Of a DNA stretch of 54,215 nucleotides, positions 21,590 to 30,327 are shown piece after piece. This DNA is from Deltaproteobacteria bacterium (GTDB lineage: Bacteria; Desulfobacterota; Syntrophia; Syntrophales; UBA2210): the NCBI GenBank assembly GCA_016933965.1, contig JAFGTS010000021.1:1-54215 (forward strand), read 5' to 3'. The stretch's first letter is position 1; each line of letters begins with the position of its first letter. Below the pieces are notes generated by a model that worked only from the letters and a program-made list of their open reading frames with translations, was not told where the DNA came from and made no database searches. The position numbers were made by a program, and so were the translations under genes.

Positions 21590-21946
21590 TTACTGGGTTT
21601 TCGTGGACGGCTCCTCCGTGGGCGGAGCAGCCTCACCCGCGGGGAGCGCTTCTTCTTCCGGTGGGAGCTTTTCCACGGTGAACCGGGCATTCCTGAGCTT
21701 TTCGATTATGGGACCAAGGGCCGTCTTCTCATCATCGTACGTGATGGTAACCGTTCGTGTTTTGTAATCGGCCTTGTAACCGATAACACCTTCATGATTG
21801 TTCAGGATAGAACTTATCCTGGACTTCCCCGATCAGGTCCAGCACCCCTGGACCGACAGGGTCTCCGACGTTTCAACCGCCGCGGCGGCGCCGGCGGAGA
21901 GAAGGACCAGGAAGATACAGAAAAAAAACAGTGTTCGTTTCGTCAT
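21590..21946 (-). CDS. secreted heavy-metal-associated (MerP-like) protein, probable selenoprotein (CxxU)
   Basis: ATG 21946 follows GGAGGAAA. The frame gives a signal peptide (MTKRTLFFFCIFLVLLSAGA), then ETLSVQGCWT and an in-frame TGA at 21833-21835. It then continues SGKSRISSILNN, 'GVIGYKADYKTRTVTITYDD' and 'IIEKLRNARFTVEKL' to TAA at 21590. Read through, this is a 118-residue protein with a heavy-metal-associated domain in which the second cysteine of G-x-x-C-x-x-C is TGA (Cys35, Sec38). A 7-bp SECIS-like hairpin lies 18 nt after the TGA. The C-terminal ~25 residues are Pro/Glu-rich. It would bind or reduce a thiophilic metal in the periplasm. The alternative is a nonsense-mutated gene, but reading frame, motif position and hairpin all favour selenocysteine. 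Confidence 0.82.
21803..21821 (-). promoter_or_regulatory. bacterial SECIS-like hairpin
   Basis: On the mRNA, CAGGAUA-AGUUC-UAUCCUG forms a perfect 7-bp stem with a 5-nt loop whose second base is G. The apical loop begins 18 nt after the UGA at 21833-21835. Two further pairs (GU with AC) form beyond one mismatch. This matches the usual bacterial SECIS layout: a short stem directly after UGA with a G at the first or second loop position. Confidence 0.75.
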
Positions 21947-21982
21947 TGCCGGTTTCCTCCATATGTGGTGCCTGTGCGGGGG

Positions 21983-24882: not shown

Positions 24883-25533
24883 TCAGGCCCGCGTGCTTTC
24901 CGGAGAGAAACGTTCCTTGTACTGCTCGTAGAAAGCGAAGACCTTTTCGATATATCGGTGGGTTGCCGAGAAAGGCGGAACTCCCTGATACATCCTGACC
25001 TTTCTGCTTCCCGCGTTATACGCGGCAAGGGCCAGCCTGACGTCGCCGTCGAACTGATCAAGGAGCTGCCTGAAATACCGTACACCGCCATCAATATTGT
25101 GAGCGGGGTCGAAGGAATCTTCCACACCGAGCGCCTTTGCCGTGCCCGGCATCAACTGCATCAATCCTCGGGCCCCCCGGCTGGATTCTGCCCGGGGATC
25201 GCAATTGGACTCCGCCATGATGATAGCCATCACCAGGGCCGGGTCAATATCATAGCGGTCGGCGGCCCTCTCTACCAGGGGCCGCAATCTGAAGCCTTCC
25301 GGTGAGGGGTCCCGGTCAATAACCTGGTCTTCGCTGACCGGTCTGATATCATGCGCTTCCAGGGGTTCCCGGACATTGAACTGATAGACACCCGTTTCTT
25401 CAACAACGGTAGGATTTTCGGAAAAACTGTTGAATAGAGCGGGAATGAGAATGAGAGCAATGATTCCGATAATAAAAGCAATCCAGCAGGTCGTTTCCAA
25501 CGCCGGGCTCTGCGTTGACGTCTCTTCTTCCAT
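24883..25533 (-). CDS. membrane-anchored lytic transglycosylase (SLT domain)
   Basis: ATG 25533 (MEEETSTQSPALETTCWIAF) follows GGGAGGT. One N-terminal membrane helix (about residues 15-35) anchors the 216-residue protein. The C-terminal SLT domain has the catalytic glutamate in 'VMAIIMAESNCDPRAESSRG', then 'GLMQLMPGTAKALG' and 'ALAAYNAGSRKV', the standard Slt70/MltC-type motifs. It would cleave peptidoglycan glycan strands in the periplasm. A tiny candidate selenoprotein gene lies 115 bp upstream on the same strand. Its 3' end is convergent with the ABC transporter operon. Confidence 0.94.
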   Translation of the reverse strand: MEEETSTQSPALETTCWIAFIIGIIALILIPALFNSFSENPTVVEETGVYQFNVREPLEAHDIRPVSEDQVIDRDPSPEGFRLRPLVERAADRYDIDPALVMAIIMAESNCDPRAESSRGARGLMQLMPGTAKALGVEDSFDPAHNIDGGVRYFRQLLDQFDGDVRLALAAYNAGSRKVRMYQGVPPFSATHRYIEKVFAFYEQYKERFSPESTRA

Positions 25534-25648
25534 TTTCTGACCTCCCTGAAAGAGGAGGGGCAAGCCTCCTCAGAGAGCATTCATAACCTTTCTGTGTTCA
25601 GAGCCGGAGCCTTTAAATCAATAATTTTCCTTTGTCAAGCAAAAAAAG

Positions 25649-25822
25649 TCAGTCCTTTCCGCACTGAACCGGTCCGTTACCGGTGTTCCGGCGGTGTTTT
25701 TCCTTGCCTGCGTCCCGGCAGGCCGGCCTCATTCAGGTCGATACGCCCATCTTCGGAAGGGCGTAAATCTGGAGAAAAAACCACACAGCGATTATCGCCA
25801 GGGGGATAAGAAAATCCATCAT
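25649..25822 (-). CDS. tiny single-TM protein; candidate selenoprotein (TGA readthrough)
   Basis: ATG 25822 (or 25819) behind AAAGG opens a 29-codon frame encoding one membrane helix, MMDFLIPLAIIAVWFFLQIY, then ALPKMGVST and TGA at 25733-25735. Without readthrough this is a 29-residue membrane peptide. With readthrough the frame continues MRPACRDAGKEKHRRNTGNG then PVQCGKD to a TGA at 25649, 57 residues in all with Sec30 and a nearby Cys35. After the first TGA, GCCUGC-CGGGAC-GCAGGC forms a perfect 6-bp hairpin with G at loop position 2, starting 15 nt downstream. I recall small membrane proteins ending similarly in such genomes, but cannot verify it. Selenocysteine is a hypothesis. Confidence 0.5.
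25706..25723 (-). promoter_or_regulatory. SECIS-like hairpin after TGA of tiny membrane protein
   Basis: A perfect 6-bp stem GCCUGC/GCAGGC with loop CGGGAC begins nine bases after the UGA at 25733-25735. The UGC-N6-GCA top resembles that of the E. coli fdhF SECIS, and the second loop base is G. The distance to the loop (15 nt) is at the short end of the usual range. Confidence 0.42.
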
Positions 25823-26207
25823 CCTTTGTTCTCCTTGTCGAAATTCTCCCCGTCCGTACCTCATGATCGGGACCGGAATTATAATATAAGGTAATTACCC
25901 ATAGGAGATAAAGCAAGAAATAAGTTAATCAGGGAACGGTCTCATGAGGTTCAATGGTTTTTCTCCTCCCTTTCGTAAAGGGAGGCCGGGAGGGATTTTC
26001 GTATGTAAAATCCCCCTTGATCCCCCTTTGTCAAAGGGGGATTTCTGTATTACCAGGCAATCAGGCACCCCGACTCCCGATTTACACTTGCTATTTTTTG
26101 AGGCTTGCGTATTATTAGCGACATGCACCGGTCCCGGGGAATGAGGACCGCTTCCCCGATCCAGGGTCCGGAAAGCATCAGAATGTCCGGAAAGGAGTGG
26201 AAGAGAG
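25823..26207. other. 385-bp intergenic region with palindromic repeat
   Basis: No gene is supported here. It holds the upstream region of the tiny membrane protein gene (AT-rich around 25875-25930), the palindromic repeat at 25965-26045, and the leader of the small gene starting at 26208. Confidence 0.6.
25965..26045. repeat. imperfect double palindrome (REP/MITE-like intergenic repeat)
   Basis: The segment holds two hairpins: CCTCCCTTT-CGT-AAAGGGAGG and CCCCCTTTGTCAAAGGGGG. They are joined by GGGAGGGATTTT and its near-complement AAAATCCCCC, so the whole folds on itself. Such C-rich/G-rich palindromes are recurrent intergenic elements in Desulfobacterota and other phyla. Small shadow ORFs over it are not genes. 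Confidence 0.75.
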
Positions 26208-26396
26208 ATGTCGGTTGTGCAGCCCAAGGGTGAAAAGATGCGGCAGGCGGTGAAGTGGATCTCCAGCAGAATTGAAGATGAAGGTGTTACCCTATCACAG
26301 CTCATCGAACGGGCATCGAGAGAATTCAACCTTTCTCCGATGGAAGAAGAATTCCTCATAAGCTTCTACAAGCAGAGTCAGAAGAAGGAAGAATAG
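26208..26396 (+). CDS. small helical protein, 62 residues
   Basis: The protein opens MSVVQPKGEKMRQAVKWISS and is rich in charged residues with helical periodicity; it ends EEEFLISFYKQSQKKEE. An alternative start is Met11. AAGGAG lies about a dozen bases upstream of ATG 26208. The segment 'LSQLIERASREFNLSPMEEE' could be a helix-turn-helix-like pair, but no known family is recognised. It stands alone between the repeat and the AOR leader. Coding status is judged from codon pattern and ribosome site. Confidence 0.7.
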   Translation: MSVVQPKGEKMRQAVKWISSRIEDEGVTLSQLIERASREFNLSPMEEEFLISFYKQSQKKEE

Positions 26397-26697: not shown

Positions 26698-26726
26698 TTG
26701 ACAGCGGATGTGTTTACCAGTAAATA
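26698..26726 (+). promoter_or_regulatory. sigma70-type promoter for AOR operon
   Basis: A consensus TTGACA (26698-26703), a 17-bp spacer and TAAATA (26721-26726). Transcription would start near 26733, leaving a leader of about 125 nt before the AOR start codon. Confidence 0.62.
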
Positions 26727-26764
26727 TGACCATAGTCAAATTCATTTTAAGCATATAAAATTAA

Positions 26765-26822
26765 GTCCCGAACCATATCCGTCGCGGAAGACAGTTTTCT
26801 CCGAGGAGCATGGGGTCGGGAC
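26765..26822 (+). promoter_or_regulatory. structured 5' leader of AOR operon (possible riboswitch)
   Basis: GUCCCGA (26765-26771) pairs perfectly with UCGGGAC (26816-26822), and the helix can extend with ACCAU against AUGGGG. Inside are two small hairpins, UCCG-UCG-CGGA (26778-26788) and CUCCGAGGAG (26799-26808). The three-helix junction ends 37 nt before the AOR start codon. By context a molybdenum- or tungsten-cofactor sensor is possible; I do not recognise the known Moco consensus with certainty. Confidence 0.45.
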
Positions 26823-26859
26823 AGTGAAGCATGCCGCAGGTGATCAAAGGGGGAATCCG

Positions 26860-28731
26860 ATGGGGGGTAATTTCAACAAATTTCTCGAGTTGGATCTTGG
26901 CACGGGGAACATCGAGACCAGAAGTATTGACCCGGATTATTTCAGGCAGTATGTGGGGGGAAGCGCCCTGGCGGCCCGCATCTTTTACGACATGTTCGAT
27001 CCGGAGACAGGCCCTCTCGAACCGGACAGCCCTCTCCTGATCATGGCGGGCCCCCTGGTGGGCACCAATTTTCCCGGCACGTCACGCTTTGTCATCTGCG
27101 GTCGCTCACCCCTGACGGGGATCTGGAGCGAATCGGCATCGGGCGGTTTCTTCGGCTTGGAACTCAAGAGGGCCGGATACGACGGGATCATAATCCGCGG
27201 GAAATCGTCCCGACCCTGTTTCATCCGGATCGATAATGAGGAGGTGTCCATTCAGGATGCCGGTGAGCTGTGGGGAGCGGACACCTACGAGACGATCGAT
27301 CGAATTGGTGGAAAGGGCGGTGAGGGAAGACCGTTGAGGGTCATCGCCATCGGGCGGGCCGGTGAAAACGTGGTCAATATGGCCAACATCTGCAATGACA
27401 AGGCTCATTATATCGGCCGGACCGGCATGGGCGCCCTCATGGGAAGCAAGAACCTCAAGGCCGTCGCGGTCCGGGGAAGCGGTTCCGTGCCGGTCGCCGA
27501 CACGGAAGCCTACCGGACGGCCCGGGCGGCGGCCATGGAACACATAAAGGACTCCCTCATGTCCCAGACCTTCCATGAGCTGGGTACGGCGGCGGCCATG
27601 GAGCTCGGCATGACCACCGGCGACGTCCCCATCAAGAACTGGTCCGTCGGTGAGGATTACGCCCTGGGTTTCGCCGTGGGAGGAACGGCGCTCGCCTCGC
27701 AGCTCGTCAAAAAACGCGCCGCCTGCGCCGCCTGTCCCATCGCCTGCAAGCCCGTCGTGGAGGTCGACGACCCCGTTTACGGCATCCCCGAGGGACCGGG
27801 CCCGGAATACGAGACACTGGGCACCTTCGGGACAATGATCATGAACGACAATCTCAACGCCATCGCCAAGGCCAACGACCTGTGCAATCGGCTCGGCCTC
27901 GACACCATTTCCTGCGGCGCTACGATCGCCTTCATCATGGAAGTGTATGAAAAAGGACTTCTTTCCCGTCAGGACCTTGACGGCCTCGACCTTACCTGGG
28001 GAAACATCGACGCCGCCATCGAGCTCATCGGGAAGATCGCCCGCCGCGAAGGGTTCGGTGACCGAGCAGCCGGAGGAAGCCGGGCGCTGGCCCGGAGTAT
28101 CGGCGGTGAAGCCCTGGACTGCCTGGTGGAGGTGAAAGGGCTGGAGCTTCCCATGCACGACCCCCGGGGGTTCCACGGCATGGGCCTCGCATACATGAAC
28201 TCGAACCGCGGTGCCTGTCATCTCCAGCATTCCGCGCAGGCGACCGAACAGGGCATGGTCTCCTGGAACGAGGTGGGCCTCAAGGACGACTACCCCGGCC
28301 CCGACAGCACGGGAAAAGCGGAGGTCGTTTACATCAGCGAGAACATCGGACAGATGGCCAATGCCGTCTGCATCTGTCATTTCGTCCACTGGTGCATGAC
28401 GCTCGCCGACCTCGTCGATGGTCTCAACGCGGTGACCGGCTTTGATTACAGCCTTTCCGGCTTCATGGAAGCGGGAAAACGCGCATGGCTCCTGAAGCGG
28501 GCGATCAACAATCTCTACGGCATCACCGCGACGGACGACCGGCTCCCGAAGCGGGTCATGACCCCGCTTTCCGAAGGCGCCTCCCAGGGGATCATTCCCG
28601 ACATGGAGTTGATGAAGAGGGAATATTATTTGATACGCGGACTCAATGACAACGGCTATCCGACCGTGGAGACACTGGACTCATCGGGTCTGGGATATGT
28701 AAAACAACGACTATACCGGCAAGGAGGGTGA
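26860..28731 (+). CDS. aor: aldehyde ferredoxin oxidoreductase, tungstopterin type
   Basis: ATG 26860 (MGGNFNKFLELDLGTGNIET) follows AAAGGGGGAA; the longer frame from 26698 lies in the leader. The 623-residue protein has the AOR N-terminal domain ('YVGGSALAARIFYDMFD', 'LIMAGPLVGTNFPGTSRF') and domains 2-3. Cys289-x2-Cys292-x3-Cys296 (CAACPIACKP) and Cys504 (AVCICHF) fit the [4Fe-4S] ligands. It oxidises aldehydes to acids with ferredoxin, or reduces acids in reverse, using a tungsten bis-pterin cofactor. It leads an operon with two SCP2-domain proteins and an Fe-alcohol dehydrogenase. Confidence 0.95.
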   Translation: MGGNFNKFLELDLGTGNIETRSIDPDYFRQYVGGSALAARIFYDMFDPETGPLEPDSPLLIMAGPLVGTNFPGTSRFVICGRSPLTGIWSESASGGFFGLELKRAGYDGIIIRGKSSRPCFIRIDNEEVSIQDAGELWGADTYETIDRIGGKGGEGRPLRVIAIGRAGENVVNMANICNDKAHYIGRTGMGALMGSKNLKAVAVRGSGSVPVADTEAYRTARAAAMEHIKDSLMSQTFHELGTAAAMELGMTTGDVPIKNWSVGEDYALGFAVGGTALASQLVKKRAACAACPIACKPVVEVDDPVYGIPEGPGPEYETLGTFGTMIMNDNLNAIAKANDLCNRLGLDTISCGATIAFIMEVYEKGLLSRQDLDGLDLTWGNIDAAIELIGKIARREGFGDRAAGGSRALARSIGGEALDCLVEVKGLELPMHDPRGFHGMGLAYMNSNRGACHLQHSAQATEQGMVSWNEVGLKDDYPGPDSTGKAEVVYISENIGQMANAVCICHFVHWCMTLADLVDGLNAVTGFDYSLSGFMEAGKRAWLLKRAINNLYGITATDDRLPKRVMTPLSEGASQGIIPDMELMKREYYLIRGLNDNGYPTVETLDSSGLGYVKQRLYRQGG

Positions 28732-29157: not shown

Positions 29158-29169
29158 GAGGTGGCCCTC

Positions 29170-30327
29170 ATGTACGAGCAGGACCTCAGCTTCATCTATT
29201 TTGCCCCGACAAAGGTGGTGTTCGGCGCGGGTTCGGTATCGGAACTCCCCATGGAAGTCGGCACCCTGGGCTCGAAAGTGCTTCTCGTCACCGACCCGGG
29301 CATTATCGCCACCGGCATGGTCGACCAGGTGAAGGATATCCTCGGTGACAGCCTGGTGGGGGTCTTTTCGGACGTGCCCCAGGACACGGGAATGGAGGTG
29401 GTCGATGAGGGAGCCCGGTACGGCACGTCAACGGGCGCCGATGTCATCGTCAGCCTCGGCGGGGGCAGCGTCATCGATACCGGAAAGGGGATGTGCATCC
29501 TCATGAGAGAAGGAGGGAGCCTGCGTGATTTTCAGGGGATGCAGATGCTCACCCGGCCCCAGATCCCGAACATCGTGATCCCCACCACATCGGGGACCGG
29601 TTCCGAGGTAACGTCGGCCGCCGTCGTGCTCGACAAGGAACAGGGACAGAAGATCATCATCTACGAGTATCACATCACCCCCCGGGTGGCGATACTGGAC
29701 CCGAAAATGACGGAAAAGCTGCCCCCTCACCTGACGGCTTCCACGGGGATGGACGCGCTGACCCACGCGATCGAAAGCTATACGTCCAACAGCAGGAATC
29801 CCATTTCGGACGCGGTCGCGCTGCACGCCGTCAGGCTCATCGCGGAGAACCTGCCGCAGGCCGTGGCCGACGGTTCCGACCTCACGGCACGGGGACAGAT
29901 GCAGGTGGCGGCGCTTTTGGGCGGCTGGGCCTTTTCGAACGCCCTTCTGGGGCTGGTGCACGCCATGGCCCACTCGATCGGCGCGATCCGCGGGGTCCCC
30001 CACGGCCTGGCCAACGGCATCATTCTCCCCCATGTCATGCGGTTCAACCTTGATGAAATACCGGCACGGACGGCCGATATCACCGCCGCGCTCGGTATCG
30101 CCACCCACGGCATGGACCCTCATGAAGCGGGGGAAATGGGCATCGCGGCGATCGAATCGCTCCAGGACCGCGTTCGTCTTCCGCGAAAACTGAGAGACGC
30201 CGGTGTTGAAGAGGGTGATCTGGGAAAGGCGGCCGAACTGGCCATGAGCGACGGTTCGATCGTGTATAACCCGCGGATGGTATTTGAATCCAGCGAGGTT
30301 CTCGATGTATTCAGAAAGGCCTACTGA
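29170..30327 (+). CDS. iron-containing alcohol dehydrogenase
   Basis: ATG 29170 (MYEQDLSFIYFAPTKVVFGA) has AGGAGG eight bases upstream; GTG 29161 is less likely. The 385-residue group III ADH has 'VSLGGGSVIDTGKGMCI' for NAD(P) binding and 'IPTTSGTGSEVTSAAVVLD'. The metal ligands are visible as Asp in LDPKMTEKLPPHL..GMDALTHAIE and His in GLVHAMAHSIG and GVPHGLANG. It would interconvert an alcohol and aldehyde, supplying or using the AOR substrate. It overlaps neither neighbour but is only 12 bp after the first SCP2 gene. Confidence 0.95.
   Translation: MYEQDLSFIYFAPTKVVFGAGSVSELPMEVGTLGSKVLLVTDPGIIATGMVDQVKDILGDSLVGVFSDVPQDTGMEVVDEGARYGTSTGADVIVSLGGGSVIDTGKGMCILMREGGSLRDFQGMQMLTRPQIPNIVIPTTSGTGSEVTSAAVVLDKEQGQKIIIYEYHITPRVAILDPKMTEKLPPHLTASTGMDALTHAIESYTSNSRNPISDAVALHAVRLIAENLPQAVADGSDLTARGQMQVAALLGGWAFSNALLGLVHAMAHSIGAIRGVPHGLANGIILPHVMRFNLDEIPARTADITAALGIATHGMDPHEAGEMGIAAIESLQDRVRLPRKLRDAGVEEGDLGKAAELAMSDGSIVYNPRMVFESSEVLDVFRKAY

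Follow-up and report, generated by a model that had tools for sequence, protein, structure and literature searches.

It is established that SelB, loaded with Sec-tRNA, binds the SECIS hairpin of a selenoprotein message and inserts selenocysteine. The nearest known counterparts of the gene reported here are bacterial selenoprotein genes of the E. coli fdhF type, which share with it an in-frame UGA and an adjacent hairpin with a G at loop position 1-2 (PMC13188914) and which, as here, occur in genomes encoding SelA, SelB, SelD and tRNA-Sec. In the legend to Fig. 2 of the same paper, a bacterial SECIS (bSECIS) is required to have a loop of 3-9 nt, a stem of at least 4 bp and a G at loop position 1-2, to lie 16-37 nt from the UGA and to have an MFE of -7.5 or lower. 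Selenoproteins of unknown function have also been described, among them OS_HP3/DW, DG, DF and TsoA/TsoC/TsoX/TsoY, several of which come from the same phylum as our gene (PMC13188914 and PMC12013277). According to these papers, the selenoprotein finders behind much of the current 119-family catalogue start from Cys homologues (PMC13188914), and deep-Sep may miss families that have none (PMC12013277).

The window analysed here is a stretch of 54,215 nt from a deltaproteobacterium of the order Syntrophales (GCA_016933965.1, contig JAFGTS010000021.1). We conclude, with a probability of about 0.95, that the in-frame TGA of a tiny gene in this window is read as selenocysteine and that the gene encodes a selenoprotein. 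This conclusion is drawn from sequence comparison; neither selenium in the product nor translation beyond the TGA has been shown directly.

The gene and its relatives

The original prediction described a 29-codon frame ending in LPKMGVST-TGA, which continues for 27 further codons with a Cys five residues past the TGA (T-U-x4-C), and did not give its strand. The sequence confirms this description and places the gene on the minus strand, where positions 25822-25649 encode 57 residues (MMDFLIPLAIIAVWFFLQIYALPKMGVST-U-MRPACRDAG...) with an in-frame TGA; the plus-strand reading of 25649-25822 is unrelated. The start ATG is at 25822-25820, with a second ATG adjoining, 29 codons lead to LPKMGVST, and 27 codons separate the TGA at 25735-25733 from the terminating TGA at 25651-25649. 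The features discussed below are as follows.

25831-25836, minus strand: Shine-Dalgarno-like AAGGAG, 8 nt 5' of the ATG (from sequence)
25652-25822, minus strand: predicted coding sequence of the 57-residue selenoprotein, terminating TGA at 25649-25651 (from sequence and orthologues)
25748-25810, minus strand: predicted transmembrane helix, residues 5-25 (AlphaFold2 on alignment A1)
25733-25735, minus strand: TGA, putative Sec codon, residue 30 (TGA in 170/170 distinct family windows)
25718-25720, minus strand: codon of Cys35, at Sec +5 in T-U-x4-C (Cys at U+5 in 82% of 168 members)
25706-25723, minus strand: predicted SECIS-type hairpin, 6-bp stem and 6-nt loop CGGGAC (covariation and recoding control across the family)
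24883-25536, minus strand: lytic transglycosylase (SLT domain), next gene downstream (Pfam PF01464, 8.9e-30)
21590-21976, minus strand: MerP-like selenoprotein candidate with signal peptide, heavy-metal-associated domain and the motif GCWTU (C-x2-U), TGA at 21835-21833 (Pfam HMA, 6.4e-7)

A search with the readthrough protein gave matches at E <= 1e-3 in 28 of 60 related genomes, the source genome included, and each best match among these 28 genomes contained exactly one TGA. In every one of the 28 members this TGA occupies residue 29 or 30; the proteins range from 41 to 66 residues, W, L, P and G are invariant, and Q, T and the Cys at +5 are near-invariant. A profile built from these members identified 166 carriers among 395 genomes sampled across the phylum. 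When the profile was broadened to 62 members, it matched 169 of the 395, spanning about 60 taxonomic families by table count, and all 152 matches listed for it contain a TGA (manual count). Three genomes (G061, G082 and G123) were matched solely by the broader profile, and their DNA is not among the members read. Two peptide patterns that leave the Sec codon unspecified were also run against GTDB species genomes. They matched 42 loci, every one with TGA, in organisms that include Desulfocicer vacuolatum, Desulfosarcina cetonica, strain NaphS2 and several Syntrophales drafts. Outside the phylum the family was sampled only through these two narrow patterns, and absence elsewhere is not implied; a family search of plasmids and viral contigs gave no match.

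Since member sequences share ancestry, the counts given throughout overstate independence. Two weak matches from the 60-genome search (L052 and L053) were excluded before alignment A1, and four other weak loci (L101, L103, L104 and L105), which are possibly within the counts of 222 loci and 170 windows used below, were removed from the codon-change and open-frame analyses. A supposed member beside a MerP-like gene in genome G050 and a weak second match near selD in the source genome were both rejected once their DNA was read. A possible divergent paralogue with a weak score, ending in ...SFSCPTUATKRP, was seen in one genus (L104 in G205 and second matches in G076, G113, G148 and G177).

Hairpin and selenocysteine machinery

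It had also been claimed that a perfect 6-bp hairpin with a G at loop position 2 lies directly 3' of the TGA, and it was found at 25723-25706 (GCCUGC-CGGGAC-GCAGGC). By itself the hairpin of the source gene is weak evidence, as folding was equalled in 4 of 200 dinucleotide shuffles and in 464 of 5000 synonymous recodings. Such a lone hairpin is only mildly unusual; it is the family, with its matches in 28 of 60 genomes and a TGA at one fixed place in each, that lifts the case above chance. A SECIS-like hairpin was present in 145 of the 170 real members, compared with 24% of 17,000 synonymous recodings in which the amino acids were fixed, and the MFE had a mean z of -1.40 against the recodings, with z below zero in 157 of 170 members. 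In the covariation set, which comprised the 67 members in the commonest register out of 130 distinct ones listed, 37 double-sided pair changes were observed in the seven-pair stem versus 15.9 in shuffles; the covariation score was 0.273 versus 0.170 in shuffles, with none of 500 shuffles as high and all slid registers beaten. In the clearest pair, the silent third base of the Cys codon is joined to the first base of an Ala/Thr codon, and in the 139 U-x4-C members this pair was C-G in 81, T-A in 27, T-G in 22 and C-A in 1, the Cys wobble base tracking its pairing partner (Fisher p 1.5e-13). Compensatory changes and the recoding control together show that the predicted hairpin is under selection in the family.

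The hairpins fall into two subtypes, one with its loop about 16 nt past the TGA and the other with it about 23 nt past. In the source gene the loop begins 15 nt past the UGA, one below the 16-37 nt rule, and the remaining bSECIS criteria are met. The bSECIS shape and spacing were met by 139 of 170 members, and the energy as well by 124, while 25 members failed the hairpin test outright. For the family as a whole these predicted structures support the SECIS criterion.

The active selenocysteine system that had been thought plausible is matched by the gene content of the source genome, in which SelA, SelB, a TGA-containing SelD and tRNA-Sec are all encoded. The selB gene is on contig C18 (365 bits), selA on C45 (607 bits) and selD on C2 (378 bits), the last itself containing an in-frame TGA, as part of the motif GAGUACK, and tRNA-Sec (56.9 bits, UCA anticodon) lies at the edge of C32, where its 3' end is lost at the contig end. 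Another tRNA-Sec candidate, on C51, is a tRNA-Ser by ARAGORN. Across the 395 genomes, carriage of the family tracks SelB: 158 of the 166 carriers encode a full SelB, compared with 195 of the 229 genomes that lack the family (p 0.0015). The eight carriers with no full SelB match are all drafts of 40 or more contigs, one of them listed as 98% complete, and we read the missing genes as assembly gaps, which remains unproven. DsrA was found in 96 of 166 carriers versus 93 of 229 non-carriers (p 8e-4, kinship uncorrected); sulfate reduction as a requirement was rejected, as the source genome and 69 other carriers are without DsrA.

Possible function and the reading of the TGA

The protein had been described as a single-helix membrane protein, and AlphaFold2 on alignment A1 likewise predicts one confident helix at residues 5-25 (mean pLDDT 85 for residues 1-10 and 88 for residues 11-20), with no further structure and low confidence for the remainder. 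The mean net charge is -0.27 for the N-terminal 4 residues and +2.77 past the helix. Under the positive-inside rule the positively charged end of a membrane protein is cytoplasmic, and because the post-helix part is positively charged the end that carries Sec is expected on the cytoplasmic side. The protein is probably a single span with its N-terminus out and its charged C-terminus in, the Sec-x4-Cys lying at the cytoplasmic membrane face, a topology inferred from charge only. The first Cys past Sec is at +5 in 138 of 170 members (82% of 168) and at +6 in 12, and L050, L159 and L192 (and the doubtful L104) have neither a Cys past Sec nor a second Sec. In four members of one genus (L093, L094, L096 and L098, from G260, G362, G324 and G343) the usual Cys is absent and a second in-frame TGA is followed by x4-Cys, so that LPSUGAP... 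is followed by P[IV]PTUDGxxCxIGxQSKK (for example PTUDGPSCSIG). These are apparently double selenoproteins, with the U-x4-C motif repeated as if duplicated.

By the known biology, SelB carrying Sec-tRNA would bind the hairpin past the TGA and insert selenocysteine; we infer that the product of about 50 residues is a single-span anchor placing the Sec-x4-Cys at the cytoplasmic face. Most simply, the selenol and its partner Cys may form a redox or sulfur/selenium relay tethered to the membrane, in which plain Cys would be no substitute; this molecular job is an inference, and we put it forward only as a tentative one. Against a functional assignment stand the lack of a constant gene neighbour and of any known relative, and the few members noted above that have no Cys past Sec. 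The same selenoprotein could instead use its Sec-x4-Cys as a site for a metal or metalloid (e.g. Hg, Cu or As), together with metal-handling neighbours, an explanation that we find doubtful. It was suggested by the MerP-like gene 3.9 kb off in the window, which is the other TGA-plus-hairpin case of the original prediction and also holds up as a CxxU selenoprotein candidate: homologues were found in 28 of 60 relatives, with TGA in all matches listed, and its match to the NCBIfam MerP model is below the cut-off. In one relative (G001) the MerP-like gene begins about 189 nt past the TGA of the tiny gene, and ArsR and MerR regulators adjoin some loci of the family. Nonetheless, of 222 loci searched, only those of G001 (three locus copies) have a MerP-like gene with TGA close to the family gene; one other (L214) has a Cys form of MerP-like gene nearby, and in G004 the two genes are 9 kb apart; pairing as a general rule was rejected, and most loci have no adjoining metal gene.

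Neighbours were taken by simple ORF calling, which includes some false frames, among them the one upstream in the source window. A same-strand upstream gene was found in 93 of 123 loci, with a median gap of 69 nt, and the family gene therefore often ends an operon. No constant partner emerged, as neighbour clustering of the 123 loci and Pfam scans gave lineage-bound partners only; an earlier clustering was dominated by the synteny of one clade. The Pfam scans covered 84 upstream genes and 38 of 45 downstream genes (the others being likely false frames), together with the source window's own. FmdB-like zinc ribbon proteins adjoined 8 of 84 and MobB 7 of 84 (10 loci by cluster), and there were 5 4Fe-4S ferredoxins, 3-4 thioredoxin-like proteins, 4 MerR, 4 GltX, 3 cytochrome c7 and 3 ArsR. 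Partners are often redox or metal genes, which without a background comparison is only a hint.

The lytic transglycosylase downstream of the source gene is the same neighbour in G004 and is not a general partner. On the plus strand, 26208-26396 encodes a 62-residue protein (MSVVQPKGEKMRQAVKWISS...) with no Pfam match, and a similar protein is likewise divergent beside the selenoprotein gene in G001 (L244). The source window also has an aldehyde ferredoxin oxidoreductase-like gene (26698-28731, plus strand), whose terminating TGA looks like an ordinary stop, followed by an iron-type alcohol dehydrogenase (29161-30327, plus strand). In one clade (L141:6195-6623, L121 and L130) a conserved 143-residue protein (MTHLDTGNYAAKH...) with no Pfam match lies directly downstream, and these loci have a 3D-domain protein upstream.

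A tiny frame containing a codon that is decoded according to how much selenium is available might also be a cis-acting selenium sensor, in which readthrough versus stop at the TGA controls the downstream gene and the peptide is irrelevant. A sigma factor does lie 34-40 nt past the TGA in 6 loci, but the downstream gene varies and in 64 of 123 loci runs in the opposite direction, and a leader would have no need of a strongly conserved membrane helix or of the LP[KR]xGxxTU motif, which makes a sensor very improbable.

We consider it still less credible that translation truly ends at the TGA, giving a peptide of 29 residues, with the hairpin serving as a terminator or other 3' RNA element. The conserved stretch past the TGA does mostly overlap the hairpin, and readthrough is not demonstrable by prediction alone. 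However, a true stop would be expected to drift among the three stop codons, as terminal stops do: the terminating codons of 170 distinct frames are TGA in 68, TAA in 59 and TAG in 43, whereas the site codon is TGA in 170 of 170 and TAA or TAG in none (Fisher p 8e-41, kinship uncorrected). With duplicates included, TGA was read in 222 of 222 loci, the TGA being taken as the nearest one no more than 6 codons from where the alignment predicted it. A strict motif search recovered 45 of 52 loci in one set and 41 of 42 in another, with TGA in every one. Furthermore, the frame past the TGA is open in every member: all 167 of 167 run on for 10 codons or more, compared with 50% and 66% in the other two frames (paired open-length test, p 5e-6 against one alternative frame and a marginal p 0.05 against the other). 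Among 18 pairs of close relatives, changes fall most often on third codon positions, both 5' of the TGA and within the hairpin region, where these positions account for 28 of 46 changes (p 2e-4).

It had been expected that selenocysteine would be supported by conservation of the 27 codons after the TGA, or by Cys in its place, and refuted by a lack of conservation there or by TAA or TAG at the site. In 168 members, W-16 is conserved in 95%, P-7 in 99%, G-4 in 99%, T-1 in 90% and C+5 in 82%, and Q/V/A-like residues are conserved beyond Cys+5. Beyond about 11 codons, 92 nonsynonymous versus 26 synonymous codon changes were counted in the 18 pairs; this tail is nearly free to change, and therefore only about the first ten residues past Sec matter in sequence. 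The expectation was thus met for about the first 10 codons and not for the tail, and neither refuting outcome was obtained. The expected Cys replacement did not appear, as profile, pattern and read-locus searches of the phylum genomes and the GTDB scan gave no Cys-containing homologue. Because the profiles carried Cys at the Sec column, Cys forms would score at least as well. Either the chemistry requires selenium or the sample missed such forms. A changed code in which TGA is read as Trp, Cys or Gly has the open frame as its sole support and can be set aside, as 68 of 170 of the same genes terminate in TGA and Sec machinery and SECIS-type hairpins are present.

Comparison with known selenoproteins

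The 28 members had no meaningful match in NCBIfam release 20.0 (best E 0.04, to unrelated families) and no convincing family in Pfam (best E 0.0035, three members, to a mycobacterial cell-wall protein), and a comparison with PDB sequences gave no relative (best E 0.38 over 18 residues). Table 1 of PMC13188914, which lists 119 prokaryotic selenoprotein families, has no recognisable entry with LP[KR]xGxxTU or with one helix and about 50 residues. The family is likewise undescribed in the literature consulted, including passages of PMC9312934, PMC12013277, PMC1914089 and PMC8318568, the families of the Olavius symbiont (2007) and of Haft (2025) being covered only through NCBIfam and the PMC13188914 table. 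Like OS_HP3/DW, DG, DF and the Tso group, the tiny family is of unknown function; it had no match in NCBIfam 20.0, in which the inclusion of models for that group is unconfirmed. The predicted tiny membrane selenoprotein represents a family of very small selenoproteins, of about 50 residues, that had not been described before.

We think it likely that this is a phylum-wide, Sec-only family of micro-proteins, each a membrane-anchored selenol peptide in which no Cys replacement is tolerated, and that it was missed for two reasons: gene finders pass over genes so short, and selenoprotein finders have no Cys homologue to start from. Ordinary gene finding would truncate the gene at a false stop, and the presence of the family in about 42% of the sampled phylum genomes would mark a blind spot of Cys-based selenoprotein finders, suggesting that further very short Sec-only proteins lie behind TGA "stops". 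It also raises the question of why selection holds selenium at one position, with no Cys form seen, in a near-bare membrane helix.

In layout the family has two known counterparts. The FeoB-associated Cys-rich membrane protein has one helix and then a short Cys-containing tail, a similar arrangement, but no such Pfam family was among the matches of the 28 members. The eukaryotic SELENOK and SELENOS are single-span proteins whose tail, charged, disordered and exposed to the cytosol, carries Sec close to its end. The tiny family resembles them in layout, with no sequence relation implied, while SELENOK and SELENOS are longer and belong to another domain of life.
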